DNA of 64,000 nt, taken from Betaproteobacteria bacterium HGW-Betaproteobacteria-16 (GTDB lineage: Bacteria; Pseudomonadota; Gammaproteobacteria; Burkholderiales; Burkholderiaceae_C). The stretch lies in assembly GCA_002840835.1 (NCBI GenBank), contig PHCQ01000018.1:1-64000 (forward strand), in the 5' to 3' direction. Below the pieces are notes generated by a model that was not told the origin of the DNA, ran no database searches, and saw nothing but the letters and a program-made list of their open reading frames with translations. Below, piece after piece: positions 12,782-31,149 of the stretch (positions within the stretch are counted from its first letter, which is position 1; each line of letters opens with the position of its first letter). The position numbers and the translations under genes were made by a program.

Positions 12782-14053
12782 ATGAAATCGGGCCTCCACT
12801 TCCTGGTCGCAGCCAAGCGCTGCGAAATAGACGAGCTGCAGCAGCTCGCGCGCACCAGTGCGCTCGTGAACGTGACCGGGCGACTGGTGCACGGCTTGCA
12901 GCGGGAGCGGGGACTGTCCAATCTGGTGCTGGGCTCGCAGGGGTCGCGTTTCACCGAGGCCCGGGCGCAACAGATTGCCGAGTGCCAGCAGATCGAGACC
13001 GAGTTGCGCGCCTGCCTGGACTGCATGGACACCAGCGCCACGCCCACCGGCAACGGAGCGCGCCTGTACAGCCGCATCGCCTATGTGCTGCACGGACTGG
13101 ACGCCCTGCCCGGTCTGCGTCAGCGTGTCGAATCGCTGAGCTGGACTTCCCGCCAGGCCACCGACGCCTATGCGCGCCTGGTCACCGGCCTGCTGGCCGT
13201 GGTGTTCGAGGCGGCTGACAGCGCCACCGACCCGGAGGTATCGCGACTGCTGGTGGCCTTGTTCAACTTCATGCAGGGCAAGGAGTTTGCAGGGCAGGAA
13301 CGCGCCGTGGGATCTGCGCTCTTCGCCACCGGCCGCGCAGAGGCCGGCGAGCAGCAACGCCTGTTGCATCTGATTGAGTCACAGGAACGCTGCCTGCAGG
13401 TGTTTGTGGAGTTCGCCAGTGCCGAGGTGGAAACCCTGTGGAGGCAGGGCCAGGAAAGCGCCACCCTGGCCGAACTGGAGCGATTGCGCCGCATCCTGTG
13501 CACCGCCAGCCATGGCACCGCCCTCGACGCCGGCATGAGCCAGACCTGGTTCGACTGCTGCAGCCGGCGCATGGACAGCATGAAAGCGGTGGAGGAACGG
13601 GTGGCCGGCGACTTGCTGCAGGTCTGTCAGGAGAAGGTGGCCGCCGCCAACGCCGATCTCGCGGCCTACAACGCGTTGAATGCGGCGCCGCCGTCAGATA
13701 CCAATGGCATGTCGTTCTTCGAAGACGCGGCACCCACCCCCGGCAACCCCGGGCTGGGCATGGCGGCGCAGGGATTTGGTCTGCACCTGGAACGCTCCAT
13801 TCTCGAGCTGGTCCAGGAACAGGCGCACAGGCTGCAGACCATGGGCGACGAACTGGACACGGTGCGCGCCAGCTTGAACGAGCGCAAGTTGATTGAACGC
13901 GCCAAGGGCCTGCTGATGGCGCACCGGCACCTGAGCGAAGAAGAAGCCCACAAAACCATGCGCCAGATGGCCATGAACCAGAACCGCCGGCTCATCGAAG
14001 TGGCCGAAGCGGTGCTGGCAATGGCCGAGGTGCTGCCCGAACGCCGTCCCTGA
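12782..14053 (+). CDS. nasR: NasR-like nitrate/nitrite-responsive antiterminator (NIT sensor plus ANTAR)
   Basis: A 423-residue cytoplasmic protein. The N-terminal two thirds (about residues 20-290) is helical and matches a NIT nitrate/nitrite-sensing domain ([37 protein letters not shown]). The C-terminus (about 360-415) is an ANTAR RNA-binding domain: [20 protein letters not shown], then [23 protein letters not shown] plus ANTAR is the architecture of Klebsiella NasR, which binds hexaloop hairpins in the nasF leader and prevents termination when nitrate or nitrite is present. It sits directly upstream of an ABC operon whose leader carries such hairpins, so that leader is the obvious target. 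There is no obvious membrane segment. Confidence 0.92.
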
Positions 14054-14082: not shown

Positions 14083-14127
14083 GCACAAATTGAGTGCCCG
14101 CACGCGCCGCGCGCACCAGACTGACGC
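14083..14127. promoter_or_regulatory. Two NtrC-like enhancer sites upstream of ABC operon 1
   Basis: Bases 14083-14097 read GCAC-N7-GTGC exactly, the core of the NtrC consensus. Bases 14113-14127 are GCACCA-N3-TGACGC, with one perfect and one weak half-site. The two are 30 bp apart, about three helical turns. The same pair at the same spacing occurs before operon 2. The sites are seen; binding by NtrC is inferred. Confidence 0.65.
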
Positions 14128-14227
14128 TGGCCACACACCCCAGCAAAGACAGCATTGCCACGCCCGGCTTCCCGTTTTTCCCTTGTAAATCAATCGGTTC
14201 ATCTGCGTTCGGGGCGCAGCGTCGTCG

Positions 14228-14244
14228 CTGGCACGCTCCCTGCT
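14228..14244 (+). promoter_or_regulatory. Sigma-54 promoter of ABC operon 1
   Basis: CTGGCACG-N4-CTGCT matches the -24/-12 consensus (YTGGCACG-N4-TTGCW) at every position of the -24 element and at GC of the -12 element, with the required 12-bp GG-to-GC distance. Predicted start is near 14255, a few bases before the first leader hairpin. Confidence 0.85.
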
Positions 14245-14259
14245 TTTAGCCAAGCAATG

Positions 14260-14319
14260 GGGTCGGAGCCAATGGCGGTTCGGACCCTGGTCTTTCCAGA
14301 CACTGGACAACGGCGTCCA
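14260..14319 (+). promoter_or_regulatory. ANTAR-type double hexaloop RNA leader, operon 1
   Basis: Hairpin P1 (14260-14287) has a 10-bp stem with one mismatch and the hexaloop AAUGGC. Hairpin P2 (14304-14319) is UGGAC/GUCCA with hexaloop AACGGC. Both loops have A at position 1 and G at position 4, the residues ANTAR proteins require. P2 shares bases with the 5' arm of the terminator that follows, so P2 and the terminator cannot form together. The protein most likely to stabilise P1-P2 is the NIT-ANTAR product encoded just upstream. Confidence 0.85.
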
Positions 14320-14362
14320 TCGCGTTCCGGCTTCGGCCGGCAATGCGATGGGCGCCGTTTTT
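14309..14362 (+). terminator. Regulated intrinsic terminator in the operon 1 leader
   Basis: A 14-bp arm beginning ACGGCGTCCATCGC (14310) pairs with GCGATGGGCGCCGT, has an inner CCGGC-TTCG-GCCGG stem, and ends in a run of five T. It lies 62 bp before the first gene of the operon, so it is an attenuator and not an end-of-operon terminator. Confidence 0.9.
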
Positions 14363-14424
14363 GTTTGGGCCGTGCATTTCTTTTTTCCCTCGTCTCCCGC
14401 TTTCACTTTTCACAGGAGTTGATC

Positions 14425-15738
14425 ATGAAGACACCATCGAATGCCATGTCCCCATCGCGCCGCGCGGTCATCCAGAAAGCATCGGCGCTGGGTGCCGCCG
14501 CCTTGGCAGGGGGCCTCTTGACGGGCCGTGCCCAGGCCCAGGCCACCGGCACGCCAGAGACGCGCGCAGCCAAGCTGGGCTTCATCGCGCTGACGGATGC
14601 CGCGCCGCTGTTCGTGGCCGATGAGAAAGGCTTCTTCAAGAAACACGGCATGACCGAGGTGGAGGTGCTCAAACAATCCTCATGGGGCACCACGCGCGAC
14701 AACCTGGTGCTGGGTTCCGGCAAGGGGGGCATCGACGGCGGCCACATCCTCACGCCCATGCCCTACCTCATCAGCACGGGCGCTGTCACAGCCAACAACA
14801 TCCCGGTGCCGATGAACATCCTGGCGCGGCTGAATCTGGGCGGTCAGTGCATTTCGGTAGGTGCTGAATACCTGGATCTCAAGGTCGGCGCCGACACCAA
14901 GGCATTCGGCAAGGCCCTGTTGGCCAAGCGCACGAAGACGGGCAAGGCGGTCAACGCTGCAATGACCTTCCCCGGCGGCACGCATGACATGTGGATCCGC
15001 TACTGGATGGCCGCGGGTGGCGTGGACCCGAACAAGGACATCACCACCATCGTGGTGCCACCGGCACAGATGGTGGCCAACATGAAGGTGGGCAGCATGG
15101 ACACCTTCTGCGTGTGCGAGCCCTGGAACCGGCAGCTCATCAACCAGAAGATCGGGTACACGGCGGTCACCACCAGCGAGCTCTGGATGAACCACCCCGA
15201 AAAGGCTTTTGCCATGCGCGCCGACTACGTGCAGGCCAACCCCATCGCCACCAAGGCGCTTCTCAAGGCCGTGATGGAAGCCCAGATGTGGTGCGAGGAC
15301 CCGGCCAACCGGGCCGAGGTGGCCGAGATCTGCTCGCGCCGCCGCTGGATCAATGCACCAGTGGCCGATGTGATCGACCGCGTCAAGGGCGACTTCGACT
15401 ACGGCACCGGCCGTGTCGAAATGAACAGCAAGTACCAGATGCGCTTCTGGAAGGACCACGCCAGCTACCCGTTCCAGAGCCACGACCTGTGGTTCCTGAC
15501 CGAGAACATCCGCTGGGGTTACCTGCCGCCGAACCTGGACACCAAAGCCCTGATCGCCAAGGTGAACCGCGAAGACCTTTGGCGCGCCGCGGCCAAGGAA
15601 CTCGGCGTGGCTGCCAAGGACATCCCCACCTCCACCTCGCGCGGTGTGGAGACCTTCTTCGACGGCAAGGTGTTCGATCCGGCCGACCCGAAGAAGTACC
15701 TGGACAGCCTGGGCATCAAGTACATCAAGAGTGCCTGA
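14425..15738 (+). CDS. nrtA: Nitrate ABC transporter substrate-binding protein, system 1 (NrtA/CmpA family)
   Basis: A 437-residue periplasmic binding protein of the NrtA/CmpA family. The N-terminus has a twin-arginine signal (SRRAVIQK followed by a hydrophobic Ala/Gly stretch and an RAQAQA cleavage region). Family hallmarks include KLGFIALTDAAPLFVADEKG, GIDGGHILTPMPYLIS, THDMWIRYWMAAGGVDP and DTFCVCEPWNRQLI. The start MKTPSNAMSP follows a GGAG ribosome site. It is the first gene after the attenuator and heads a three-gene operon with a permease and an ATPase. Nitrate as ligand follows from context; NrtA relatives can also bind bicarbonate or nitrite. Confidence 0.9.
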   Translation: MKTPSNAMSPSRRAVIQKASALGAAALAGGLLTGRAQAQATGTPETRAAKLGFIALTDAAPLFVADEKGFFKKHGMTEVEVLKQSSWGTTRDNLVLGSGKGGIDGGHILTPMPYLISTGAVTANNIPVPMNILARLNLGGQCISVGAEYLDLKVGADTKAFGKALLAKRTKTGKAVNAAMTFPGGTHDMWIRYWMAAGGVDPNKDITTIVVPPAQMVANMKVGSMDTFCVCEPWNRQLINQKIGYTAVTTSELWMNHPEKAFAMRADYVQANPIATKALLKAVMEAQMWCEDPANRAEVAEICSRRRWINAPVADVIDRVKGDFDYGTGRVEMNSKYQMRFWKDHASYPFQSHDLWFLTENIRWGYLPPNLDTKALIAKVNREDLWRAAAKELGVAAKDIPTSTSRGVETFFDGKVFDPADPKKYLDSLGIKYIKSA

Positions 15739-15799
15739 GCCATTGAGTGCCTGACCCCTCACATCCGCAGCGTCACCTTTCCGATCAGGAGCCATCTGC

Positions 15800-16663
15800 A
15801 TGAACACCACCGAAACCATCGAGCCCATCCGGCTGGCCACGCCGGCGGCGCCTTCGGCGCTGCCTGGCTGGCTGAAGTCCGCCACCCGCGTCTTCGTCAA
15901 CCATGTGCTGCCGCCCCTGGTGGTCACCGGTTTGCTCGTCCTGATCTGGGAGATGCTGGGCTCGCGGCCGGGCGCGGCACTGCCCGCACCCAGCCGTGTG
16001 ATCGAAGACACTTGGGAGCTGATCCTGCACCCGTTCTACGACAACGGTGGCAACGACGTCGGTGTGGCCTGGCAGTTGCTGGCCAGTCTCAAGCGTGTGG
16101 CCTACGGCTATTCATTGGCAGTGGTGGCGGGTGTGAGCCTGGGCGTGCTGGTGGGGCAATCCACCTGGGCGCTGCGCGGGCTGGATCCGCTGTTCCAGGT
16201 GCTGCGCACCGTGCCGCCCCTGGCCTGGTTGCCGATCTCGCTGGCCGGGTTCCAGGATGGCCAGCCCTCGGCCATCTTCGTGATCTTCATCACCTCGATC
16301 TGGCCGATCATCATCAACACGTCCATCGGCATCCGCAACATCCCGGAGGACTACCGCAACGTGGCCCGCGTGATCCGGCTCAACGGCATCGAGTACTTCG
16401 TCAAGATCATGCTGCCCGCTGCCGCGCCCTTCATCTTCTCTGGCCTGCGCATCGGCGTGGGTCTGTCGTGGCTGGCCATCATCGCGGCCGAGATGCTGAT
16501 CGGCGGCGTCGGCATCGGCTTCTTCATCTGGGACGCATGGAACTCCTCGCGCATCAGCGACATCATCCTGGCGCTTGTTTACGTCGGCCTGATCGGCTTC
16601 TTCCTCGATCGCGTGGTCGCCTGGATCGGTCGCGCCGTCACCCGAGGCACTTCTGCCAGTTAA
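15800..16663 (+). CDS. nrtB: Nitrate ABC transporter permease, system 1 (NrtB-type)
   Basis: A 287-residue inner-membrane permease of the NrtB/SsuC/TauC family. Several hydrophobic segments are visible from residue 32 (VLPPLVVTGLLVLIWEMLG), plus the EAA-like coupling loop (NVARVIRLNGIEYFVKIMLPAAAPFIFSGLRIG) that contacts the ATPase. TVPPLAWLPISLAGFQ is a family signature. It lies 61 bp after the binding protein and 10 bp before the ATPase gene, so the transporter is complete. Confidence 0.92.
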   Translation: MNTTETIEPIRLATPAAPSALPGWLKSATRVFVNHVLPPLVVTGLLVLIWEMLGSRPGAALPAPSRVIEDTWELILHPFYDNGGNDVGVAWQLLASLKRVAYGYSLAVVAGVSLGVLVGQSTWALRGLDPLFQVLRTVPPLAWLPISLAGFQDGQPSAIFVIFITSIWPIIINTSIGIRNIPEDYRNVARVIRLNGIEYFVKIMLPAAAPFIFSGLRIGVGLSWLAIIAAEMLIGGVGIGFFIWDAWNSSRISDIILALVYVGLIGFFLDRVVAWIGRAVTRGTSAS

Positions 16664-16673
16664 GGAGCACACC

Positions 16674-17525
16674 ATGAGCAGCGCCTACCTCACCCTCTCT
16701 CAGGTCGACATGACCTTCACCGGCAACAACGGTGTCATCAACCCGGTGCTCAAGGGCATCGACCTCCATGTTCAACGCGGCGAATTCATCTCCTTGATCG
16801 GCCACTCGGGCTGTGGCAAATCCACCGTGCTCAACATCGTGGCCGGCCTGCTCACAGCCACGGCGGGTGGCGTGATCGTCGACGGGCGGGAAGTCAACGC
16901 GCCCGGCCCCGACCGGGCGGTGGTGTTCCAGAACCATTCGCTGCTGCCCTGGCTCACGGTCTACCAGAACGTGGAGATCGCGGTGGCCAAGATCTTCGCC
17001 GACAGCAAGACGGCGGCCGAGCGCAAGGACTGGATCCTGCACAACCTGAACATGGTGAACATGTCGCACGCGCTGCACCGCCTGCCCTCCGAAATTTCGG
17101 GCGGCATGAAGCAGCGCGTGGGCATCGCCCGTGCGCTGGCCATGGAGCCCAAGGTACTGTTGCTGGACGAGCCCTTCGGCGCACTCGATGCGCTCACCCG
17201 CGCCCACCTGCAGGACGAGGTGATCCGCATCCAGGGCGAGCTGGGCAACACCGTCATGATGATCACGCACGACGTGGACGAAGCCGTGCTGCTGTCTGAC
17301 CGCGTGGTGATGATGACCAACGGCCCTGCCGCCACCATCGGCCAGATTCTCGACATCCCGCTGCCGCGACCCCGCGATCGCATCGCACTGGCAGAGAACC
17401 CCGCCTACAACCACTGCCGGCAGGAAATCCTGAGCTTCCTGTACGAGAAGCAGCGCAAGATCGAATCGATCGTGAGCGCTCGCCAGCCTCAGGGTGTAGC
17501 GGCTCTCCTGGCCATGAAAGCTTGA
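16674..17525 (+). CDS. nrtC: Nitrate ABC transporter ATP-binding protein, system 1 (NrtD/SsuB-type)
   Basis: A 283-residue ABC ATPase. Walker A is [10 protein letters not shown]-loop VFQNHSLLPW, signature [15 protein letters not shown], Walker [17 protein letters not shown] and the switch histidine ITHDVDEAV; all are canonical. It would form a symmetric homodimer, in contrast with the fused, asymmetric ATPase of system 2. It ends operon 1; the promoter and attenuator of operon 2 follow directly, with no end-of-operon terminator visible between the two. Confidence 0.92.
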   Translation: MSSAYLTLSQVDMTFTGNNGVINPVLKGIDLHVQRGEFISLIGHSGCGKSTVLNIVAGLLTATAGGVIVDGREVNAPGPDRAVVFQNHSLLPWLTVYQNVEIAVAKIFADSKTAAERKDWILHNLNMVNMSHALHRLPSEISGGMKQRVGIARALAMEPKVLLLDEPFGALDALTRAHLQDEVIRIQGELGNTVMMITHDVDEAVLLSDRVVMMTNGPAATIGQILDIPLPRPRDRIALAENPAYNHCRQEILSFLYEKQRKIESIVSARQPQGVAALLAMKA

Positions 17526-17578
17526 GGGCGTGTTCACGATCCAAAAGGCTGCCTGTCACGCAAACACTGTGCTGCGCC

Positions 17579-17623
17579 GCACAAATTGAGTGCCCGCCAA
17601 AAACGGGCGCACCAGTTTGACGC
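17579..17623. promoter_or_regulatory. Two NtrC-like enhancer sites upstream of ABC operon 2
   Basis: GCAC-N7-GTGC at 17579-17593 is identical in sequence to the operon 1 site. GCACCA-N3-TGACGC at 17609-17623 differs from its counterpart only in the three spacer bases. The 30-bp spacing and the roughly 100-bp distance to the sigma-54 promoter match operon 1. Confidence 0.65.
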
Positions 17624-17721
17624 CAGGCCACCCGGGCACCCTGTCCGGCCAATCGTCACCTGCACTTTGATTTTCTTTTTGAAATCAACAAGATAGCAAA
17701 GCATCCGCGGCAGCCTCAAGA

Positions 17722-17738
17722 CTGGCACGGTCCCTGCT
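17722..17738 (+). promoter_or_regulatory. Sigma-54 promoter of ABC operon 2
   Basis: CTGGCACG-N4-CTGCT, the same match as at operon 1, with GG and GC 12 bp apart. Predicted start near 17749, about five bases before the first leader hairpin. Confidence 0.85.
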
Positions 17739-17753
17739 TAATTCAAACCAACA

Positions 17754-17812
17754 GGTGCTGAGCCAATGACGGCTCGGCACCCGGTCTTTCCAGAGACAGG
17801 ACAACGGCGTCC
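17754..17812 (+). promoter_or_regulatory. ANTAR-type double hexaloop RNA leader, operon 2
   Basis: P1 (17754-17781) is an 11-bp stem with hexaloop AAUGAC. Compared with operon 1 the stem bases differ but pairing is kept, which supports selection on the RNA fold. P2 (17799-17812) is GGAC/GUCC with hexaloop AACGGC. Both loops keep A1 and G4, and P2 again overlaps the terminator 5' arm. Confidence 0.85.
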
Positions 17813-17855
17813 ATTTCCAGCTGATCCCGATCAGCCAGGAGATGGACGCCGTTTT
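17803..17855 (+). terminator. Regulated intrinsic terminator in the operon 2 leader
   Basis: AACGGCGTCCAT pairs with ATGGACGCCGTT (12 bp), continued by TCC/GGA and an inner GCTGAT/ATCAGC stem, then a short T-run. It lies 42 bp upstream of the binding-protein start and is mutually exclusive with hairpin P2. Confidence 0.88.
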
Positions 17856-17897
17856 GCTTTCCGAATCCGTTTTTTGATCATCAGCAAGGAGTTACCC

Positions 17898-19268
17898 ATG
17901 GCCTCTTCGTCGCACAAGCTCAACCGCCGCCGCTTCACCACCGGCGCCCTGGCCCTGGCTGGCACATCGGCACTGACCCTGCCGGCCCTGGCCCAGAAAG
18001 CGGCACGGCCAGAGAAGGAGTCGCTGAAGTTCGGCTTCATCAAACTGACCGATTGCGCCCCGCTCGTGGTGGCCTACGAAAAGGGCTACTTCGAAGACGA
18101 AGGCCTGAACGTGACGCTGGAAGCCCAGGCCAACTGGAAGGTGCTGCTCGACCGCGTGATCGATGGTCAACTCGATGGCGCGCACATGCTGGCCGGTCAG
18201 CCGCTGGGCGCCACGATCGGTTTCGGCACCAAGGCCGACATCGTGACCGCGTTCAGCATGGACCTCAACGGCAACGCCATCACGGTGTCCAACGCGGTCT
18301 GGGCCGAGATGAAACAGCATCTGCCCATGAAGGACGGCAAGGTGGTGCACCCGATCAAGGCCGATGCACTGAAGAAGGTCGTGGACGCCTGGAAGAAGGA
18401 AGGCAAGGCCTTCAAGATGGGCATGGTCTTTCCGGTCTCAACGCACAACTACGAACTGCGCTACTGGCTCGCCGCAGGTGGTCTGAACCCGGGCTACTAC
18501 ACCGCGAGCGACATCAGCGGCACCAGCAAGGCCGACGTGCTGCTCTCCGTCACACCTCCACCGCAGATGCCTGCCACCATGGAGTCGGGCACGATCCACG
18601 GCTATTGCGTGGGTGAGCCCTGGAACCAGCAGGCGGTGTTCAAAGGCGTGGGCGTGCCCGTGATCACCGACGACGAGATCTGGAAGAACAACCCAGAGAA
18701 GGTCTTTGGCGTGACCAGCGCCTGGGCCAAGGCCAACCCCAACACCCACATCGCCGTGGTCAAGGCGCTGATCCGCGCCGGCCAGTGGCTCGACGCCTCC
18801 ATGGCCAACCGCATCGAGGCCGTGAAGATGCTGTCCAAGTCGCAGTACGTGGGCGCTGACGAAGCCGTGATCGCCAACAGCATGACCGGCACCTTCGAAT
18901 ACGAGAAGGGCGACAAGCGACCCTCGCCAGACTTCAACGTCTTCTTCCGCAACTTCGCCACCTACCCCTTCTACAGCGACGCCATCTGGTACCTCACGCA
19001 GATGCGCCGCTGGGGCCAGATCACGGAAACCAAGCCGGACAGCTGGTACCTGGAAACGGCGAAAAAGGTCTACCTGCCCGAGGTGTACATGCAGGCCGCC
19101 AACGCGCTGATCGCCGAAGGCAAGATCAAGCCCACCGACGTGCCCAAGACCGACGGCTTCAAGGGTGTGCAGACGGGGTTCATCGACGGCGTGGCCTACG
19201 ACGGCCGCAAGCCGAACGACTACCTCACCAAGTTCAAGATCGGCCTGAAAGCCGCTGACAAGGTCTGA
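17898..19268 (+). CDS. nrtA: Nitrate ABC transporter substrate-binding protein, system 2 (NrtA/CmpA family)
   Basis: A 456-residue binding protein. It begins with a twin-arginine signal ([20 protein letters not shown], cleavage near ALAQK) and shows the family motifs [60 protein letters not shown] and [18 protein letters not shown]. The start has a good AAGGAG site. It is clearly diverged from the system 1 protein, so the two systems are not a recent duplication and may differ in affinity or ligand. The permease follows 2 bp later. Confidence 0.9.
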
Positions 19269-19270
19269 CC

Positions 19271-20245
19271 ATGCAACTCGCGAACAAACTCCTTGGCGGC
19301 GGCATGGCCGCCCTGCGCGACCCGCGCGAAATGGGTCGCGCCTTCATGATGTCGGTCGGCGTTCCCGTGATGGCCTTCGCACTCTTTCTGGCGCTGTGGT
19401 CCGTCGCGGCCTCGCGCATCCAGACCAGCCTGGGTGCCGTGCCAGGCCCGGTGCAGGTGGCCGTGCAGGCCAAGGCATTGATCGAGGAGCACTTCTCCGA
19501 ACGCGAGCGCGAGGCGGCCTTCTACGAGCGCCAGATCAAGCGCAACAAGGAGCGCCTGGCCGAGGACCCGACCTACGAGCCCCGCAACTTCCAGTGGACC
19601 GGCAAGCGCACCTACATCGACCAGATCATCACCAGCCTCTACACCGTGTTCGTGGGCTTTCTGCTCGCCACGGTGGTGGCGGTGCCGCTGGGCATCCTGG
19701 CTGGCACCTCCAAGATCGTGCAGGCCGCCATCAACCCCATGGTGCAGATCTTCCGCCCGGTCTCGCCCCTGGCCTGGCTGCCCATCGTGACGCTGATCGT
19801 CAGTGCGGTCTACGTGACCACGGGCGAGCCGATGTTCCAGAAGTCGTTCCTGATCTCGGCCATCACGGTCACGCTGTGCTCGCTGTGGACCACGCTGATC
19901 AACACCGCCATCGGCGTGACCTCGGTCGACAAAGACCTCGTGAACGTCGGCAAGGTGTTGCAGCTGCCGCTGTCCACCCGGGTGCGCAAGATCGTGCTGC
20001 CGTCTGCCCTGCCCTTCATCTTCACCGGCATGCGCCTGTCGCTGGGCGTGGGCTGGATGGTGCTGATCGCCGCAGAGATGCTGGCGCAGAACCCCGGACT
20101 GGGCAAGTTCGTCTGGGACGAGTTCCAGAACGGCAGCTCCGACTCCCTGAGCCGGATCATGGTGGCCGTGTTCACGATCGGCATCATCGGCTTCGGCCTC
20201 GACCGCCTGATGCAGTTGCTGCAGAACCTGGCCGCGCACCGCTGA
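19271..20245 (+). CDS. nrtB: Nitrate ABC transporter permease, system 2 (NrtB-type)
   Basis: A 324-residue permease with the same core as system 1, including PVSPLAWLPIVTLIVSAVYV and the coupling loop VGKVLQLPLSTRVRKIVLPSALPFIFTGMRLS. It is longer because of a charged stretch after the first membrane segment (about residues 66-100, rich in Glu, Arg and Lys, e.g. EEHFSEREREAAFYERQIKR) that system 1 lacks. Start ATG is 2 bp after the binding-protein stop, implying coupling. Confidence 0.9.
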   Translation: MQLANKLLGGGMAALRDPREMGRAFMMSVGVPVMAFALFLALWSVAASRIQTSLGAVPGPVQVAVQAKALIEEHFSEREREAAFYERQIKRNKERLAEDPTYEPRNFQWTGKRTYIDQIITSLYTVFVGFLLATVVAVPLGILAGTSKIVQAAINPMVQIFRPVSPLAWLPIVTLIVSAVYVTTGEPMFQKSFLISAITVTLCSLWTTLINTAIGVTSVDKDLVNVGKVLQLPLSTRVRKIVLPSALPFIFTGMRLSLGVGWMVLIAAEMLAQNPGLGKFVWDEFQNGSSDSLSRIMVAVFTIGIIGFGLDRLMQLLQNLAAHR

Positions 20246-20264
20246 CCCCTCAGGAGCCTGAAGC

Positions 20265-22127
20265 ATGAACCTCGCCCTGAAAACCCAGGACACCTTCAGC
20301 CCGATGGTGCAAACAGCACATCCGGCACGGACGGTGCCGTCGGCGGCTGGCCCGGCGCTGGTCGCCGTGCCTGCCCCCGCTGCGCTCGAACTGCGCAACG
20401 TCAGCAAGTCGTACGGGCATGGCAGCGCGCGCACCGAAGTCCTGAAGAACCTCAACCTGCGCGTCGAGCCCGGTGAGTTCGTGGCCATCGTCGGCTTCTC
20501 CGGCAGCGGCAAGACCACGCTCATCAGCCTGCTGGCGGGCCTGATCGCCGCCGATCAGGGAGCCGTGCTCAAAGGCGGCGCACCCATCACCGGGCCCGGA
20601 CCGGACCGCGGCATCGTGTTCCAGAACTACTCGCTCATGCCCTGGCTGAGCGTGCGCGACAACGTGGCCCTGGCAGTGGACCGCGTGTTCGCCAGCGAAA
20701 GCACCGAACAGCGCGCCGAGCGCGTGCGCCGCTACGTGTCCATGGTCGGCCTCACGCCCGCCATCGACAAGAAACCCGCCCAGCTCTCCGGCGGCATGCG
20801 CCAGCGCGTCTCGGTGGCGCGCGCCCTGGCCACCGACCCCGACGTGCTGTTGCTTGATGAACCGTTGTCCGCCCTGGATGCGCTCACACGGGCCAACCTG
20901 CAGGACGAGATCGTGCGGATCTGGAGCGAAGACCGCAAGACGGTGGTGCTGATCACCAACGACGTGGACGAGGCCCTGATGGTGGGGGACCGCATCATCC
21001 CGCTGGACGTGGGCCCCGGAGCCACCCTGGGTCCGTCGTTCACGGTGGACATTCCCCGGCCCCGTGACCGCCGCGCCATGAACCACGATGTGCGCTTCCA
21101 GCAACTGCGCGGCGAAATCACCCAATACCTGATCGCACTCTCTCACAGGACCGCAGCGCAACAGCGCGGCCAGGTGATCGCGCTGCCCACACTCGTGCCA
21201 CGCGGCAGCAAGGTGCGTGAGATAGGCCCCACGCTGGCCAGCCGCATGGGCATGCGGCACGCCGCGCTGACCGAGCGCATCGAGGGCGACTTGCGGCAGA
21301 CCGTTGTGGCGCAGCCCGGAACGCCCAGCGACGCGCGCCCTGCCGATGACCGCTTCGTCGAGTTCTCGCAACTGGTCAAGGTCTACCCAACACCCAAAGG
21401 GCCGCAGACCGTGGTGGACGGCTTCGACCTGAAGATCCGCAAGGGCGAGTTCATCTCGGTGATCGGGCACTCGGGCTGCGGCAAGTCCACCGTGTTGTCG
21501 ATGATGGCCGGGCTGACCGACATCACCGAAGGCGTGATCGTGCTCGATGGCCGCGAGGTGGCCGACGCCGGCCCGGACCGTGGCCTGGTGTTCCAGGCCC
21601 CCAGCCTGGTGCCATGGCTCAGTGCGTTCGACAACGTGATGCTGGGCGTGGCCCGCGTGTTCCCGCACGCCACCGAAGCCGAGCGCCGCGACACCGTGGG
21701 CTACTACCTCAACCGCGTCGGCCTGGGCTCGGCCATGAACAAGCACGCCAGCGAACTCTCCAGCGGGATGAAGCAGCGCGTGGGCATTGCCCGCGCCTTT
21801 GCGCTCAACCCCAAGATGCTGCTGCTGGACGAACCCTTCGGCATGCTGGATTCGCTCACCCGCTGGGATCTGCAGGAGGTGCTGATGGAAGTGTGGTCGC
21901 GCAGCCAGGTCACGGCCATGATGGTCACGCACGACGTAGACGAAGCCATTTTGCTGGCCGACCGCGTGGTGATGATGACCAACGGGCCGCGCGCCAGGAT
22001 CGGCAAGGTGATGGACGTGACCCTGCCCCGCCCGAGAACCCGCGAGGCGCTGCTGGCGCACCCGCGCTACTACGAACTGCGAGAGGAACTGATCGGCTTC
22101 CTCGAAGACTGCGGCAGTCAGCATTAG
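20265..22127 (+). CDS. Fused tandem ABC ATPase, system 2 (two NBDs in one chain)
   Basis: A 620-residue protein with two complete nucleotide-binding domains joined by a linker (about residues 300-365). NBD1: Walker [10 protein letters not shown] (77-85), signature LSGGM (174-178), Walker [12 protein letters not shown], but the switch histidine is Asn232 (ITNDVDEAL). NBD2: Walker [10 protein letters not shown] (401-409), signature LSSGM (498-502), Walker [12 protein letters not shown], switch His556 intact. In a head-to-tail dimer, the NBD1 nucleotide site uses the NBD2 signature, so both deviations fall in the same composite site, leaving one canonical and one altered site. Cyanobacterial NrtC/NrtD are separate chains, so a fused form is notable. 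Confidence 0.92.
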
Positions 22128-22445: not shown

Positions 22446-23660
22446 ATGGCGGGTTTCCGTTCGTTCCTGAAAGCTGGCCACAGCCCGACGCTGCTGGCTT
22501 CCTTCATCTACTTCACCTATTGCTGTGGCGTGTGGGTCACCAACGGTGCCATGGCGCCGTTCATCCAGGAGTCGCTGCAGCTCAGCCCGGCCCAACTGGG
22601 CGTGATGCTGTCGGTACCCATTTTTGCGGGTGCCCTGATGCGGTTTCCACTGGGTGTGCTGGCCCAGTACATCGGCCGCAAGAACGCCACACTGGTGGAA
22701 ATGGGCGGCATTGCGCTGGCCCTGCTGTACGGCTTCTTCTATGTCGAGACCTTCAACCACCTCATCGCCATGGGCGTACTGCTGGGGATCGCGGGCGCGA
22801 GCTTTGGCGTGGCACTGTCGCTGGGTTCGGGCTCGTTTCCGGCCCGCTACAAGGGCTTGGCGATGGGGCTGGTGGGGGCGGGCAATGTGGGCACTTCCAT
22901 CTCGGCCTTGCTGGCGCCACAGCTGGCCCAGGCTTATGGCTGGAAAGCGGTGTACGGCATGGCCGCCGTGGGGCTGATGCTGCCGGTGCTGGTGATGATC
23001 TTCATCGCCAAGGAGCCAGACGATGTGGACAAACATTCGAGCTTTCGCGACCACATCGCCTGTCTGTTCGAAAAAGACGGCTGGGCCTTCAGCCTCATCT
23101 ATGCAATCACTTTCGGTGGCTTCATTGGACTCACCACCTTCCTGCCCAGCTACTACTACGACCAGTTCGGCGTGAGCAAGGTGCAGGCCGGCCAGCTGAC
23201 CATGCTTGCGGCCTTCATGGGTGCAGCGTTGCGCATCTTCGGCGGCTGGATCTCCGACCACTGGGGCGGCATCAACACCCTGACGGCAGTGCTGGTGATC
23301 ATCAGCGCCTCCCTCATGGCCTGCGGCCTGGCCGGCGGTTCGCTGGTCCTCACCACCTTGCTGCTCATGCTGTGCTTCGCCGCACTGGGGGCCGGCAACG
23401 GCGCGTTGTTCCAGCTGGTGCCGCTGCGCTGGCCCACCACCACAGCCGTGGCCGGCTCCATGATCGGCGAAGTGGGCGCCCTGGGCGGCGGCCTCGTGCC
23501 CAACGCCATGGGCCTGGCCAAACAATACGCGGGCACCTATTTCTGGGGCTTTGCGCTGTTCTCTGTCCTGTCGCTGCTGGTGTTGCTGATGATGCGGTCG
23601 ATGCAACTCCGCTGGACAAGAACCTGGGCAGAAAAAGGCGGGCGCGCGCGCAGCGCGTGA
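22446..23660 (+). CDS. narK: Nitrate/nitrite MFS transporter (NarK/NasA type)
   Basis: A 404-residue major facilitator with about 12 hydrophobic segments. Nitrate-porter hallmarks include the first-helix region SFIYFTYCCGVWVTNGAMA and the Gly-rich signature GIAGASFGVALSLGSG in the first half and LGAGNGALFQLVPLRW in the second. The start MAGFRSFLK follows an AAGG site. It offers a secondary nitrate (or nitrate/nitrite exchange) route beside the two ABC systems. The last codons (GGRARSA and stop) lie inside a palindromic repeat unit that continues past the gene, so the C-terminus appears to have been set by repeat sequence. Confidence 0.92.
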   Translation: MAGFRSFLKAGHSPTLLASFIYFTYCCGVWVTNGAMAPFIQESLQLSPAQLGVMLSVPIFAGALMRFPLGVLAQYIGRKNATLVEMGGIALALLYGFFYVETFNHLIAMGVLLGIAGASFGVALSLGSGSFPARYKGLAMGLVGAGNVGTSISALLAPQLAQAYGWKAVYGMAAVGLMLPVLVMIFIAKEPDDVDKHSSFRDHIACLFEKDGWAFSLIYAITFGGFIGLTTFLPSYYYDQFGVSKVQAGQLTMLAAFMGAALRIFGGWISDHWGGINTLTAVLVIISASLMACGLAGGSLVLTTLLLMLCFAALGAGNGALFQLVPLRWPTTTAVAGSMIGEVGALGGGLVPNAMGLAKQYAGTYFWGFALFSVLSLLVLLMMRSMQLRWTRTWAEKGGRARSA

Positions 23661-24868: not shown

Positions 24869-26638
24869 TCAGGCTTTCGGCAGAAACAGCAACCACATCA
24901 CGAGCAGCGCGTTGAACAGCACGCTGACGCCCAGCAACAGCTTCCAGAGCGCGGTCGGATCGCGATGAAGCAGGGCCGAGGCTGGCGGCACCGTGAGCGG
25001 GCGGGATGCACCGCGCTCGAGTGCCAGCAAAAATTCTTCAGCGGTTTCAAAACGCAGCGCCTTGTCGCGTGCCACCGCCTTCTGCACCACGTGGTCGAGC
25101 CAGATCGGCACTTCGGGGTTGTGGCGGCTGGGGGGCGTGGGGTCGCGGTAGTAGCGGCCCACCTGGTAGGGCAGCACTTCGCCGTAGGGCAGCTTGCCCG
25201 TCAGCAACTGGTAGAGCGTGACGCCCAGCGCAAACAGGTCGCTTTGCGTGTCTGGCGGCTCGGGTTCCGCATCGCCCGCACCGATGGCGTTGGCACGGAC
25301 ATGGTGACCCCACTGCTCGGGATTGACAAAACTGGGCGTGCCGGCGTGCAGACGGCGCATGCTGGCAGGTTCACGCCCGCTCAATGCCACGCCGAGATCC
25401 AGCACGCGAATCACGCCGTCGTCACCCAGATGCAGGTTGGCGGGTTTGATGTCGCGGTGAATCACGCCTTGCCGGTGCAACAAGCCCAGCACACGCAGCG
25501 TTTGCATGGCGGCACTGACCGCGTGCACCGGGCCGAACCGGTGTTGCCGATCAAGCTGCTGCTGCAGGGTTTCGCCACTGTGCCAGTCGTACAACAGATA
25601 GCAGGCGGTCGCGGTCTGCCGGTTGGGCAAGGGGTGGTGCACAGCGACGAGGTGATCGGCCGCGCGCGAGGACATCATGCGCTTGGCCAGCCAGGCCTCG
25701 TGAGCCAGCATCGCGCGCTCGTCGGGGTCGTGTGCCCGAGCGGGGTGCAGGGTCTTCAATGCATAGAGTGTCTGGCTGTGCGGATCGCGCACTTGGTAGA
25801 GCAGATTGATACCGTTGTCCGCCACCAACGCGGTGACTGTGAAACCATCGATGACTTCGCCCACCTTGAGCTTGTGCGGCACGGGCAGGCGCTGTGCCGC
25901 GCGATCGACGTCCTGCAGATTGGGCCCCTGGAGGTCAAGCACCCGCACCACCATGGCGGTCACGTTGTCGGTGCTGCCGGCGGCCAGCGCTGCCGCCACC
26001 AGGCGTTCAGCAGCGGGCTGCGCGCCTTCGGTCTGGCCAGCCGCAGCCGTGCACTCGCTCAGCCGTGACACGGGCAACACACCGTGCACGCCATCGGTGA
26101 GCATGACGAAAACGTCGCCCACCTCCAGTTCGCCCTGCAGGTAGTCGACCACCAAGTGGTCTTCAAGACCCACGGCACGCAGCAGCTGATGGCGGAGGTC
26201 GGGGTGATCGACGACATGGTCGTGCGTGATCAACTGGAACTGTCCGTCGCGCAACAGGTAGCAGCGTGCATCGCCCACATGAGCCACGGTGTACGACTGC
26301 CCGCGAAGCACCAGTGCCGTGAGCGTGGTCAGGCCCAGCGCCGGATGGCGGCGCCGGTTCACCCCGGCCAGCCAGGCGTTCTGGGCCGCAATGATGCGGT
26401 CCAGCGCCACCGTGGTGTCCCAGGTTTCGGGCGTGTCGTGGTAGCTGCGCACCAGACTGGTCACCGTGGTCTGCGCCGCCTCGCCCCCCATGCCCCCAGT
26501 GCTCACGCCATCGGCAATCGCAACGATGGAACCCATGTCTTCCTGCCCCGCAGGTGGCAGCATGGCGGCGCAGAAGTCTTCGTTCCTGTCCTTGCGGCCA
26601 GCTTGGCAGACAAACCCGATATCCAGTTGAAAAGCCAT
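24869..26638 (-). CDS. Bifunctional PP2C-type phosphatase / serine-threonine protein kinase with C-terminal membrane anchor
   Basis: A 589-residue fusion. Residues about 1-240 are a PP2C phosphatase: GRKDRNEDFCAA, AIADGVSTGGMGGEAA, VAHVGDARCYLL, VMLTDGVHGVL and GSTDNVTAMVV supply the metal-binding aspartates. Residues about 270-545 are a Hanks-type kinase with the ATP lysine in YALKTL, catalytic HRDIKPANLHL (near 393) and LDLGVAL; the glycine-rich loop is degenerate (VADNGINLLY). A single hydrophobic helix (LLLGVSVLFNALLVMWLLFL) ends the protein, so the enzyme domains face the cytoplasm. Its ATG overlaps the stop of the upstream ANTAR gene by one base, so the two are translationally coupled. 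A role in nitrate control is inferred from position. Confidence 0.9.
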   Translation of the reverse strand: MAFQLDIGFVCQAGRKDRNEDFCAAMLPPAGQEDMGSIVAIADGVSTGGMGGEAAQTTVTSLVRSYHDTPETWDTTVALDRIIAAQNAWLAGVNRRRHPALGLTTLTALVLRGQSYTVAHVGDARCYLLRDGQFQLITHDHVVDHPDLRHQLLRAVGLEDHLVVDYLQGELEVGDVFVMLTDGVHGVLPVSRLSECTAAAGQTEGAQPAAERLVAAALAAGSTDNVTAMVVRVLDLQGPNLQDVDRAAQRLPVPHKLKVGEVIDGFTVTALVADNGINLLYQVRDPHSQTLYALKTLHPARAHDPDERAMLAHEAWLAKRMMSSRAADHLVAVHHPLPNRQTATACYLLYDWHSGETLQQQLDRQHRFGPVHAVSAAMQTLRVLGLLHRQGVIHRDIKPANLHLGDDGVIRVLDLGVALSGREPASMRRLHAGTPSFVNPEQWGHHVRANAIGAGDAEPEPPDTQSDLFALGVTLYQLLTGKLPYGEVLPYQVGRYYRDPTPPSRHNPEVPIWLDHVVQKAVARDKALRFETAEEFLLALERGASRPLTVPPASALLHRDPTALWKLLLGVSVLFNALLVMWLLFLPKA

Positions 26639-27933
26639 CAGCCCATCAGCATCTGCATGCTGCGCTCGTACTGCCCCGACAAAGTTTCAAAATCGTCCAG
26701 CAGGCTCTCGCTTGCAGCCGCCAAGCCTTCCAGCCGCAGCAAGCGATCGCGACCGGCCGGTCGGCGCACGTGGTCGGCACCCGTCAGCACCTGCTGCCAG
26801 CCTTCTGCGGCCGATTCCAGCGTGCGGCGAATGTCGGGTGTGGAAAGGGGCAAGCCGTTCAAGTAGGTCAGTCCCTGTTCAAACGCCTGGCGCGCGGCTT
26901 CCATTTCAGCCTGGTGCTGCAACTGCGGGTCACCACTTTCCAGCACACCCAGCAACGAGGCCTTGGCAAAGCGTTGCGACAACATGCGCTGGCGCCCGGC
27001 CATGTTGAGCATGCGCAGCGGCGCCACGCTGCCGGCGCCCTCCAGGCTGGTGGTCAGGCGTTCGGCGTCCTGCAGCAGGCGTTCGGCCAGCGCATTGAGC
27101 GGTGCCAGCTGATCGGGCGCCGGTGCGGCCTTGAGCGCTTTCTTCAGCGCTTTCCAGTCCGTGACCACGTCGGCGAGCAGGTCGCCGCAGGTGGGTTGAG
27201 AAAGGTTCTTGCCCAGCAGCGCCAGGTTGGCGTCGATGCGCTGGGCCGAGTCGGTCTGCAGTGCCAGGTGCTGCGTGACCTGCACGCCCGCCAGCCGCAA
27301 CAGCCAGTGTTTGACCAGCCGCTGCGAGAGCATGCGCAGCTGACCGGCACGGTTCACACCTTCAGCAAAGTGGGCCGACTGGATGATGTGCTGCGCCACC
27401 TGGCCCAGGCGCTGGTTGCTGTGCATCGATGCGGTGCGCAGGATGTGGAAAGCGTCGTTGTCGGAGACCTGGCGCGCACTCATGAGAATGCCCTTGGCAC
27501 GCTCCACGGCCTTGCGCTCCTCGAACCGGGTCGATACATCGCGCAACTCATCCAGCAGCGCCTGCTCGCGAGCAAAGCGCGCCTGGGCCAACTGCATCAA
27601 GGGGCGCAGACGCTGTGCGCCGTAGCCATTGATCACATAGGCGTGCATGCCCGATTCGGTGGCGCGCACGATGTGATCGGCGTCGCCGTCTTGCGTGAAC
27701 ACCAGCACCGGCCGCGGCGAAACCTCTGCCAGGGATTGCGTGGCCTTGAACAGCGCGTCGCCCACCGTGCTGGTGTGCACCACCACCAGATTTGGTGCAT
27801 GACGCACCGCGCTTTGCACCAGCAAGCTGCAGTCGTCCAGTACCGCCACCACCTGGCCACCGGCCGTCTCCAGGTCGCTCACAAGGCCCTGGCAAGACGT
27901 CGCGTCACTCAACAAAACCACCGAAACACTCAT
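26638..27933 (-). CDS. NasT-like ANTAR protein with pseudo-receiver and two PilJ/NarX-like sensor segments
   Basis: A 431-residue cytoplasmic protein. Residues about 2-120 form a response-regulator-like fold in which the phospho-acceptor position is His53 (NLVVVHTST) instead of Asp, so phosphorylation is unlikely. The ANTAR domain spans about 132-190 (FEERKAVERAKGILMSARQV, MHSNQRLGQVAQHII). The C-terminal half contains the motifs NRAGQLRMLSQRLVK (194-208) and NMAGRQRMLSQRFAK (310-324), the pattern of PilJ and of the NarX/NarQ nitrate-binding helix. NasT normally relies on a separate sensor, NasS; here sensor segments appear fused on. The start MSVSVVLL is preferred; an ATG three codons earlier is possible. 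Coupled to the kinase/phosphatase gene, divergent from nirB. Confidence 0.88.
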   Translation of the reverse strand: MSVSVVLLSDATSCQGLVSDLETAGGQVVAVLDDCSLLVQSAVRHAPNLVVVHTSTVGDALFKATQSLAEVSPRPVLVFTQDGDADHIVRATESGMHAYVINGYGAQRLRPLMQLAQARFAREQALLDELRDVSTRFEERKAVERAKGILMSARQVSDNDAFHILRTASMHSNQRLGQVAQHIIQSAHFAEGVNRAGQLRMLSQRLVKHWLLRLAGVQVTQHLALQTDSAQRIDANLALLGKNLSQPTCGDLLADVVTDWKALKKALKAAPAPDQLAPLNALAERLLQDAERLTTSLEGAGSVAPLRMLNMAGRQRMLSQRFAKASLLGVLESGDPQLQHQAEMEAARQAFEQGLTYLNGLPLSTPDIRRTLESAAEGWQQVLTGADHVRRPAGRDRLLRLEGLAAASESLLDDFETLSGQYERSMQMLMG

Positions 27934-28031: not shown

Positions 28032-28048
28032 TTGGCATGTCTATTGCT
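28032..28048 (+). promoter_or_regulatory. Sigma-54 promoter of nirB-nirD-nasA
   Basis: TTGGCATG-N4-TTGCT: one mismatch in the -24 element, a perfect -12 element and 12-bp GG-to-GC spacing. Predicted start near 28059, where the first leader hairpin begins. No convincing NtrC pair was found upstream. Confidence 0.78.
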
Positions 28049-28058
28049 TGATGCACGA

Positions 28059-28172
28059 CGGGCGCAACGAAGCGTCCGCCCCGACCCAGCGTCGAGGGTT
28101 CCGCGCACAACGCCGTGCGTAGCCAGTCCAGACGGCAACGAAGTCCTGTCTGGTGCCGACTGTTCTGTCGGC
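28059..28172 (+). promoter_or_regulatory. nirB leader with three A1/G4 hexaloop hairpins
   Basis: Hairpin 1 (28059-28078): CGGGCGC/GCGUCCG, loop AACGAA. Hairpin 2 (28104-28119): CGCAC/GUGCG, loop AACGCC. Hairpin 3 (28128-28153): CCAGAC/GUCUGG outer stem, GGC/GUC inner stem, loop AACGAA. All three loops have A1 and G4. A fourth stem GCCGAC/GUCGGC (28155-28172) follows, but without a U-tract, so any terminator here is unconventional. Binding by one of the two ANTAR proteins of this island is inferred. Confidence 0.68.
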
Positions 28173-28273
28173 CCGATCGTATCCCTACCCAATTTCCTTT
28201 TCAGGCCTGCCTGCATTTGCGTGCGCGTGCGTGGCCTGATCCCCAAAGCAGTTTCATGAATGGAGTTCCCGCG

Positions 28274-30763: not shown

Positions 30764-31149
30764 CCGCCCGCGACTGGACCCTTGTCTGCCACGTGCAAGA
30801 CATCCCCGTGCTCGGCTCGCGCCGCGTGACCCGCGAACAGGGGCTGGACGTGGCCGTGTTCCGCAACGACCGCGACGAAGTGTTTGCCCTGCTGGACCGT
30901 TGCCCGCACAAGGGCGGCCCGCTCAGCCAGGGTATCGTGTTCGGCACCAGCGTGGCCTGCCCGCTGCACAACTGGACCATCGGCCTGTGCGACGGACAGG
31001 CAGCGGCACCCGACGAAGGCTGCACGCCGAAGTTTGCGGTCAAAGTGGAAGATGGCCAGGTGTTCCTGGACGCGAACGAGCTGCAAAGCCAGGCCACGGA
31101 CCTCACCCGACCCATCGCCGGCCCCGCTCGGCGCGCTACCTGCGCATGA
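30760..31149 (+). CDS. nirD: Nitrite reductase small subunit, Rieske-type
   Basis: A 129-residue small subunit of NAD(P)H nitrite reductase. It has full Rieske [2Fe-2S] ligand motifs, CPHKGGPLSQG and CPLHNWTIG, unlike E. coli NirD, which has lost the cysteine/histidine ligands. A functional cluster is therefore likely. It overlaps nirB by ATGA at its start and nasA by ATGA at its end, so the three genes are translationally coupled. Confidence 0.93.
   Translation: MTARDWTLVCHVQDIPVLGSRRVTREQGLDVAVFRNDRDEVFALLDRCPHKGGPLSQGIVFGTSVACPLHNWTIGLCDGQAAAPDEGCTPKFAVKVEDGQVFLDANELQSQATDLTRPIAGPARRATCA

Follow-up and report, generated by a model that had tools for sequence, protein, structure and literature searches.

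Two successive ATP-binding cassette (ABC) transporter operons in the genome of Betaproteobacteria bacterium HGW-Betaproteobacteria-16 (assembly GCA_002840835.1) are each preceded by a leader that is very probably an attenuator of the NasR/nasF type, transcribed under NtrC/sigma-54 control and subject to antitermination by a NIT-ANTAR protein. The DNA analysed, here called the window, comprises positions 1 to 64,000 of contig PHCQ01000018.1 and belongs to a genome (G000) of 5.79 Mb in 232 contigs. The features that mark NasR/nasF attenuators at the sequence level are present in both leaders (leaders 1 and 2), and the parts, their conservation, their covariation and their co-occurrence with ANTAR genes were observed directly. 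A third leader lies before the nirB-like gene of the same locus and is considered below together with a second ANTAR protein encoded beside it.

The predicted nitrate/nitrite-sensing antiterminator (12782–14053, plus strand) is encoded directly upstream of leader 1. It matches the Pfam families NIT (195 bits) and ANTAR (70.7 bits), and its NIT (residues 8–283) and ANTAR (323–414) domains both align with NasR (structure 4akk, E 3e-50). Its closest named relative, with 89% identity, comes from a Hydrogenophaga sp. metagenome bin (L033). The genome also contains an NtrC gene above the curated cut-off and two rpoN genes, on contigs G000:C125 and G000:C85, each above its curated cut-off. ANTAR-type attenuation under sigma-54 and NtrC, which a sequence-only reading of this DNA had proposed, is supported; a NasR homologue and genes for both upstream regulators are present.

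That reading had also described the same parts in the same order and spacing before both operons, and they can be read from the sequence as follows, all on the plus strand. NtrC-type site 1 (GCAC-N7-GTGC) is the identical 15-mer GCACAAATTGAGTGC in leader 1 (14083–14097) and leader 2 (17579–17593). Exactly 30 bp after it lies an imperfect second site (GCAC-N7-ACGC, two mismatches to GTGC) at 14113–14127 and 17609–17623, respectively, and about 100 bp after that site a predicted sigma-54 promoter (14229–14244 and 17723–17738). The transcript of operon 1 would start near 14255. Hairpin P1 of leader 1 (14260–14287), identified from sequence, fold and pair counts, has the loop AATGGC and one G.G mismatch; that of leader 2 (17754–17781), identified from sequence and fold, has the loop AATGAC and 11 pairs, including one G-U. 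Hairpin P2, with the loop AACGGC, occupies 14304–14319 in leader 1 and 17799–17812 in leader 2, and overlaps an intrinsic terminator predicted by folding. The terminator of leader 1 (14309–14366) consists of a stem at 14309–14359 followed by TTTTTGTTT, and that of leader 2 (17803–17860) of a stem at 17803–17853 with a T-rich tail; both stems take in the loop and the 3' arm of P2. In both leaders, both hairpins have hexaloops with A at position 1 and G at position 4. Between P1 and P2 lies a small spacer hairpin, absent from the sequence-only reading: GTCT-TTCC-AGAC at 14290–14301, which does not appear in the single-sequence minimum free energy (MFE) fold of leader 1, and GTCTT-TCCA-GAGAC at 17784–17797, which is drawn in the MFE fold of leader 2.

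These elements exceed chance expectation in the window. The sigma-54 pattern TGGCAYRN4YTGCW matches three times in 64 kb, against 0.43 expected (at least three in 2 of 100 shuffles), and the matches are those of leader 1, leader 2 and a site 5' of nirB, and nothing else. Paired hairpins with an ANNGNN hexaloop number 3 against 0.75 expected. Folding z-scores are −6.6 for leader 1 and −10.0 for leader 2, with none of 200 shuffles equally stable.

Conservation was followed in an alignment of 38 related leaders, mostly from Comamonadaceae records, which were picked by hairpin score, P2 loop AACGGC and spacing; the count of this P2 loop is therefore fixed by construction. A second alignment, of 27 of 89 candidate cores, and the alignment of nirB leaders described below were selected similarly. 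An exact NtrC-type site occurs in 32 of the 38 leaders, against 1% of shuffles, and tandem sites (two mismatches or fewer in all, 20–44 bp apart) likewise in 32 of 38, against 1.6% of shuffles; the commonest spacing is 29–30 bp (17 of 32 leaders). In leader 2 of the window the highest-ranking pair of sites chosen by the script is another one, 21 bp apart, with as many mismatches as the 30-bp pair.

In P1, 86.0% of the aligned cells are paired, against 65.1% with partners shuffled, and 92 cells have changed on both sides against 31; the covariation score is 0.558 against 0.206 for shuffled partners, and 0.053–0.191 when the columns are slid by one to three. Because the 38 leaders had been chosen partly by hairpin score, the test was repeated on 76 leaders picked solely through their P2 sequence plus a loop-flank anchor, with leader 2 of the window added by coordinate. 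At the eight outer positions of P1, 82.4% of cells are paired, against 48.9% with shuffled partners (maximum of 2000 shuffles, 57.1%). The claim that P1 stems differ in sequence and keep their pairing is thereby supported in both sets of related leaders. The 12 lower pairs of the terminator stem are formed in 38 of 38 leaders; they hardly vary, so that this is conservation and not covariation.

The spacer element is conserved as well. Its GTC is kept in 38 of 38 leaders, and a hairpin of at least four pairs including this GTC is possible in 35 of them (GTCT/AGAC, GTCA/TGAC and GTCC/GGAC, for example). Since RNAalifold pairs the spacer GTC with a GAC of the 5' arm of P2, which is free in the terminator state, the spacer may also act in switching. 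Variovorax-type leaders have no spacer hairpin; the distance between their P1 and P2 loops is about 20–24, against 32–37, and their P2 loop is AAAGGC. Several Variovorax loci (L076, L086 and L110 among them) have an extra hairpin 5' of P1, of the AGACC...GGTCT type with a variable loop; the extra hairpin thus lies on the opposite side of P1 from the 3' spacer hairpin of Hydrogenophaga. Inspection by eye led to its rejection as a third ANTAR site, as its loop varies and is once UUCG.

Several results weigh against an attenuator assignment for leaders 1 and 2. GCAC-N7-GTGC by itself is about as common in the window as chance predicts (6 occurrences, 5.06 expected); the motif count was dropped as uninformative, and the sites are taken as meaningful because of their position and their conservation. 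P1 pairs with any two-sided change number 9 of 11, against 8.2 on shuffling, and 198 of 500 shuffles reach as high. A simple terminator scan of the window listed neither attenuator, and at gathering scores Rfam found a tRNA and nothing else, hence none of the leaders. The window's own leaders went into the models R1, R2 and R3 used in the searches below, and the matches of these models to them arise by construction.

From the parts described we infer NtrC binding, ANTAR binding, the response to nitrate and the assignment of proteins to leaders. Under nitrogen shortage, phosphorylated NtrC would turn on the sigma-54 promoters of both transporter operons, with transcription starting a few bases 5' of P1. 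Without nitrate, RNA polymerase would halt at the terminator, whose 5' arm takes up the P2 loop. In the presence of nitrate or nitrite, the adjoining NIT-ANTAR protein would bind P1 and P2 at their A1/G4 hexaloops and keep P2 open, thus blocking the terminator and allowing the operon to be transcribed; the spacer hairpin probably sets a workable distance between P1 and P2. A two-input gate, answering to nitrogen limitation and to nitrate/nitrite, would follow from the established biology of NtrC and NasR.

The distribution of the leaders is consistent with this. Among 60 genomes of the genus, drawn from a larger group, 46 encode an ANTAR protein and the same 46 contain a leader recognized by model R1, while the other 14 have neither (Fisher p 6e-14). 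Several of these 14 genomes are incomplete; two (G002 and G077) are 99% complete. Searches over 40 genomes were run with stricter filters, by which weak matches are lost. A P1-P2 element follows within 600 nt downstream of the NIT-ANTAR gene at 71 of 81 loci (80 named loci and the window), and two of the ten loci without one run off contig ends. Whole-genome search of the strain itself with model R2, in which 150 of 5822 first-look candidates were scored, gave three strong matches, at 14262, 17756 and 28057 (E 6e-8 to 2.5e-7), the next having an E-value of 2.8; a whole-genome search for ANTAR proteins gave two, both encoded at this locus.

Operon 1 (14425–17525, plus strand) encodes a binding protein, a nitrate permease above the NCBIfam cut-off of TIGR01183 and an ATPase above that of TIGR01184. 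Operon 2 (17898–22127, plus strand) encodes a second binding protein, a permease and a fused double ATPase above TIGR01184; its permease scores 155 bits on TIGR01183 against a cut-off of 209, and the assignment to nitrate is therefore less sure than for operon 1. The sequence-only reading had taken the arrangement for a duplication, which does not hold for the genes: identity is 32% between the two binding proteins and, over 198 residues, 40% between the permeases. Judged by these identities, the second operon is a diverged, patchily distributed set and no copy of the first. Relatives of its binding protein at 79–86% identity occur in seven of 299 genomes of the family, the window's own apart, all in other genera, in a sample that holds few members of the window's genus; the remaining relatives, among the matches listed, reach 41% at most. 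Beside a NIT-ANTAR gene, operon 2 was found at two of the 80 named loci (86–87% for the binding protein): L038, a Ramlibacter bin that is one of the seven genomes (operon 2 genes 86, 84 and 78% identical), and L079, titled Hydrogenophaga (87, 82 and 82%). Within the fetched flanks, none of the rest of the 80 named loci showed both operons side by side. A search of the genome with the ATPase returned just the expected large ABC family. Transfer or loss can each explain the patchy distribution.

Leaders before operon 2 differ in type. Three of the seven operon-2 loci have a P1-P2-type leader directly 5' of the operon, and four have another binding-protein-like frame there (by eye). The leader tree, which carries no support values and was used solely for the point that leader 2 is of its own genus's type, groups leader 2 with Hydrogenophaga leaders and apart from those of the orthologous operons at L156 and L158. 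We infer, as the simplest account, that an operon of another type was brought under a leader of the strain's own type. Two full-length transporter-type leaders were found in G000 and G007 alone among the 46 genomes, under strict filters and with several draft genomes among them. In G007 the second leader is located elsewhere, 5' of genes for a formate/nitrite transporter and cyanase, so that a leader has apparently been placed before other nitrogen genes. At this site (L191, G007:C1:1506300–1508800) the second leader is of the terminator type, and the transporter and cyanase frames, assigned by Pfam, are followed by a PP2C-like frame (by eye).

Leaders 1 and 2 might be alike through recent copying of a segment, in which case the agreement of their P1 hairpins would reflect descent and not selection. 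They share an identical site 1 15-mer and identical stretches of linker; in the unsupported tree they come out as sisters among Hydrogenophaga leaders, with L035 as close to each. Recent copying would leave near-identical leaders; the two are 58% identical overall, no more than each is to L035, and compensated changes separate their P1 stems, as they do those of the 76 leaders. We therefore disfavour this explanation and give it hardly any credence.

The count of two leaders in the sequence-only reading stands insofar as both are real; it missed a third before nirB (28033–28120, plus strand), in which no intrinsic terminator was found and which tracks a different ANTAR protein. Leader 3 begins with a predicted sigma-54 promoter (28033–28048) and has hairpins P1 (28059–28078, loop AACGAA) and P2 (28103–28120, loop AACGCC), located by model and alignment, so that the dual hexaloop hairpins are present. 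Between them a spacer hairpin (28079–28098, CCCCGAC / GTCGAGGG) appears in the MFE fold of 28050–28190; it is missing from a longer fold, which draws one in 10 of 13 nirB leaders (not in those of the window, L033 and L045). P2 ends about 150 nt before the start of nirB, the first gene of the nirB-like and nasA-like pair (28274–33956, plus strand, assigned by Pfam). Of 13 nirB leaders of this type that were tested, 12, with leader 3 of the window among them, showed no intrinsic terminator 3' of P2. Leader 3 thus lacks the overlapping terminator of ANTAR attenuators and is not assigned to the terminator type. The Variovorax nirB leaders L077, L081 and L097 do show a terminator (by eye).

Missing terminators would be expected if leader 3 were a remnant in which P1 and P2 persist and only NtrC and sigma-54 control nirB. 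This was set against an alignment of 17 of the 18 nirB leaders located (L066 was omitted as a near copy of L065; L187 is the same as L045 and L190 the same as L036). P1 and P2 are paired in 98.5% of cells, against 94.8% on shuffling, in rows picked with P2 sequence patterns; there are 12 two-sided changes against 3.8, and 5 of 12 pairs have changed on both sides against 2.0. Such pairing speaks against the remnant explanation, which we consider rather unlikely.

The second ANTAR protein (26641–27933, minus strand) consists of a receiver-like domain, an ANTAR domain and two PilJ units, as assigned by Pfam, structure matches and the N-box described below. EutV and Rv1626 match its receiver-like and ANTAR parts, and its C-terminal part matches the nitrate chemoreceptor McpN (E 1.9e-5; structure 6GCV, PMC6381276). 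According to that paper, PilJ domains of the McpN type carry the nitrate N-box [IVL]-[ND]-x-A-G-x-Q-R-M-L-[ST]-Q (PMC6381276). The window's ANTAR-PilJ protein has it exactly at residue 309 and with one mismatch at residue 193. A predicted structural model has a mean predicted local distance difference test score (pLDDT) of 80, and adds little for the ANTAR part, where the score is 44–54. All four Foldseek matches with E ≤ 0.001 are receiver-ANTAR structures, and among the 50 matches listed the PilJ part is matched by McpZ alone (E 2.5e-3); the PilJ assignment therefore rests on sequence.

Leader 3 and this protein occur together. Model R3, for the nirB type, finds 18 genus genomes at 66 bits or more, after which scores drop to 28.6, and fifteen of the 18 are exactly those with a second ANTAR gene beside nirB. 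Leader 3 is thus present in 15 of 15 genomes with the second ANTAR protein, against 3 of 45 without (Fisher p 1.5e-11); this p-value overstates independence, given the relatedness of the species and the adjacency of the second ANTAR gene to nirB. In 14 of the 14 genomes fetched, an ANTAR-PilJ relative (58–87% identity over 415–431 residues) is encoded divergently from nirB, the fifteenth genome being that of the window. An exact N-box is present in 11 of these 14 relatives, and the other three have only a copy with one change. The ANTAR-PilJ protein is the most likely partner of leader 3, as judged by these patterns.

Two parallel nitrate-responsive systems can be proposed tentatively on this basis, as a scheme that is somewhat less likely to be right than wrong. 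The NIT-ANTAR protein would act on the terminator leaders of the transporter operons, and the receiver-like/ANTAR/PilJ protein, presumably cytosolic, on the terminator-free three-hairpin leader of nirB-nasA, by a mechanism other than antitermination at an intrinsic terminator, possibly through Rho or translation. Its rival, in which the NIT-ANTAR protein alone serves leaders 1 to 3 while the ANTAR-PilJ protein does something else, has a considerable chance of being correct, if short of an even one. In its favour, G012, which is 99% complete, has leader 3 with one ANTAR gene, and the A1/G4 loops are common to both leader types, except for the P1 loops GACGAA/GACGAG in 5 of 17 nirB leaders. The co-occurrence just given tells against it, and the other two genomes with leader 3 and no second ANTAR gene are incomplete: G008 (82%) and G061 (80%), in which no ANTAR protein was found. 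The nirB-type leader of G061 (L192, G061:C141) is a clear one. Loop letters and stems also differ by leader type, though the P2 loop of the transporter leaders is fixed by selection of the set. A further difference concerns the residue corresponding to Tyr164 of EutV, which is reported to stack on the loop base G4 (PMC8934654). We located this position by our own interpretation of the motif and the EutV alignment. Of the 74 NIT-ANTAR proteins that could be matched (7 were not matched), 65 have His and 9 have Tyr there, whereas all 20 ANTAR-PilJ proteins aligned have Phe.

Other results besides G012 speak against two parallel systems. Gene neighbourhood alone could explain the co-occurrence of leader 3 with the second ANTAR gene. 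Among the 23 ANTAR-PilJ proteins of the named loci, the window included, the exact N-box is found in 4, leaving 19 without it, and a copy with one change in all 23. Finally, P1-P2 was found in none of 17 loci in which nirB follows an opposite-strand kinase gene; therefore nirB apart from transporter genes does not always have a leader.

The remaining contexts of nirB in the named loci are as follows. Where nirB follows a transporter ATPase gene (35 loci), it has its own P1-P2 at 11 of 14 loci with a gap of more than 171 bp and at none of 21 with a smaller gap. The other nirB loci number 23: the 17 mentioned, two after a same-strand kinase gene (L046 and L079), where the scanner found no P1-P2 and a P2-terminator was seen by eye in L079, and four, the window included, after a divergent ANTAR-PilJ gene, where P1-P2 was found twice by the scanner and twice (L060 and L063) by model R3. 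The R3 search of named loci covered 62 sources, that is, 61 named loci and the window. In the Polaromonas nirB leaders L064, L065, L094 and L100, a short frame after P2 was seen by eye whose stop overlaps the nirB start (ATGA); translational coupling to nirB is possible.

Comparison with known systems places leaders 1 and 2 next to nasF of Klebsiella (PMC7496416; PMC3369931; PMC5424462). Shared with it are the NIT-ANTAR sensor, two A1/G4 hexaloop hairpins, the position of P2 in the terminator and an Ntr-controlled nitrate operon; unlike it, the present locus combines two transporter operons and a nirB leader, a second ANTAR protein, a P1-P2 spacer hairpin, and the absence of a terminator from the nirB leader. 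The sequence-only reading had named nasF as the known, single-operon example, which is too narrow, since ANTAR regulons of several operons have been published (PMC3369931; PMC6759348), in E. faecalis, D. acetoxidans and Bradyrhizobium. The eut regulon of E. faecalis includes four ANTAR leaders, which share the dual hexaloop motif and the overlap of the second hairpin with the terminator (PMC8934654); EutV, however, is a phosphorylated two-component regulator, whereas the NIT-ANTAR protein is a one-component one. In D. acetoxidans the RNA hits number at least 13, spread over six units. NasT of Bradyrhizobium acts on nap, nos and nas genes, and the hairpin is reported before few of the genes it affects. 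As in the NasT regulons of Bradyrhizobium and Paracoccus, several nitrate-related operons are brought under an ANTAR antiterminator, and in Paracoccus NtrC stands above it (PMC5424462); NasT relies on a separate sensor, NasS, whereas the scheme proposed here needs none. Many actinobacterial ANTAR-target RNAs have no terminator, like leader 3, and are thought to act on translation (PMC8164766). By analogy with them leader 3 may still work with an ANTAR protein, although their hairpins often extend over the ribosome site or the start codon and P2 of leader 3 ends well before the nirB start. On the pair of nirB leader and ANTAR-PilJ protein, no title or abstract opening was found among the papers listed, which is no proof of its being unpublished.

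Both transporter leaders match the Pseudomonas small RNA P11 of Rfam (RF00625) over its full length, at 17711–17850 and 14217–14356 of the window. The two matches score 35.5 bits (E 9.9e-5) and 30.4 bits (E 0.0019), below the gathering score of 70. RF03032 (narK RNA) gives a weak full-length match to leader 2, also below its gathering score. Leader 3 has no Rfam match up to E 1, and eight fetched nirB leaders and the second leader of G007 have none up to E 0.5. P11 is annotated in Rfam as a small RNA, whereas the leaders are read here as cis attenuators, and they might instead, or in addition, yield a separate small RNA of this kind. The full-length matches favour that view; their scores lie far under the gathering score, and P11 itself resembles an attenuated leader product, since its consensus in cmscan shows a sigma-54-like element (UGGCAC...CUGC), a CAACGA loop, GGACAAAGGCGUCC and a terminator-like stem. 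We regard a separate small RNA as very improbable; the consensus suggests that P11 may be the terminated product of an ANTAR leader or attenuator.

The locus as a whole begins with the NIT-ANTAR gene, leader 1, operon 1, leader 2 and operon 2, followed by a major facilitator superfamily transporter gene (22446–23660). Next come, on the minus strand, a gene (24869–26638) whose product combines PP2C phosphatase and Ser/Thr kinase domains, and the second ANTAR gene, then leader 3, the nirB-like and nasA-like genes and a tetrapyrrole methylase gene. The PP2C/kinase protein is found again close to nirB in Variovorax loci.

Overall, the transporter leaders are ordinary in kind and their principle is not new; with strong covariation evidence, they extend the NasR/nasF scheme to the one-component NIT-ANTAR loci of many Comamonadaceae records. 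The added value lies in the third leader and its likely partner. This pair could be a proteobacterial case of ANTAR control that dispenses with an intrinsic terminator, and one in which a nitrate-binding PilJ sensor is joined directly to an RNA-binding domain. If the two parallel systems exist, nitrate uptake and reduction would be gated by separate nitrate sensors.

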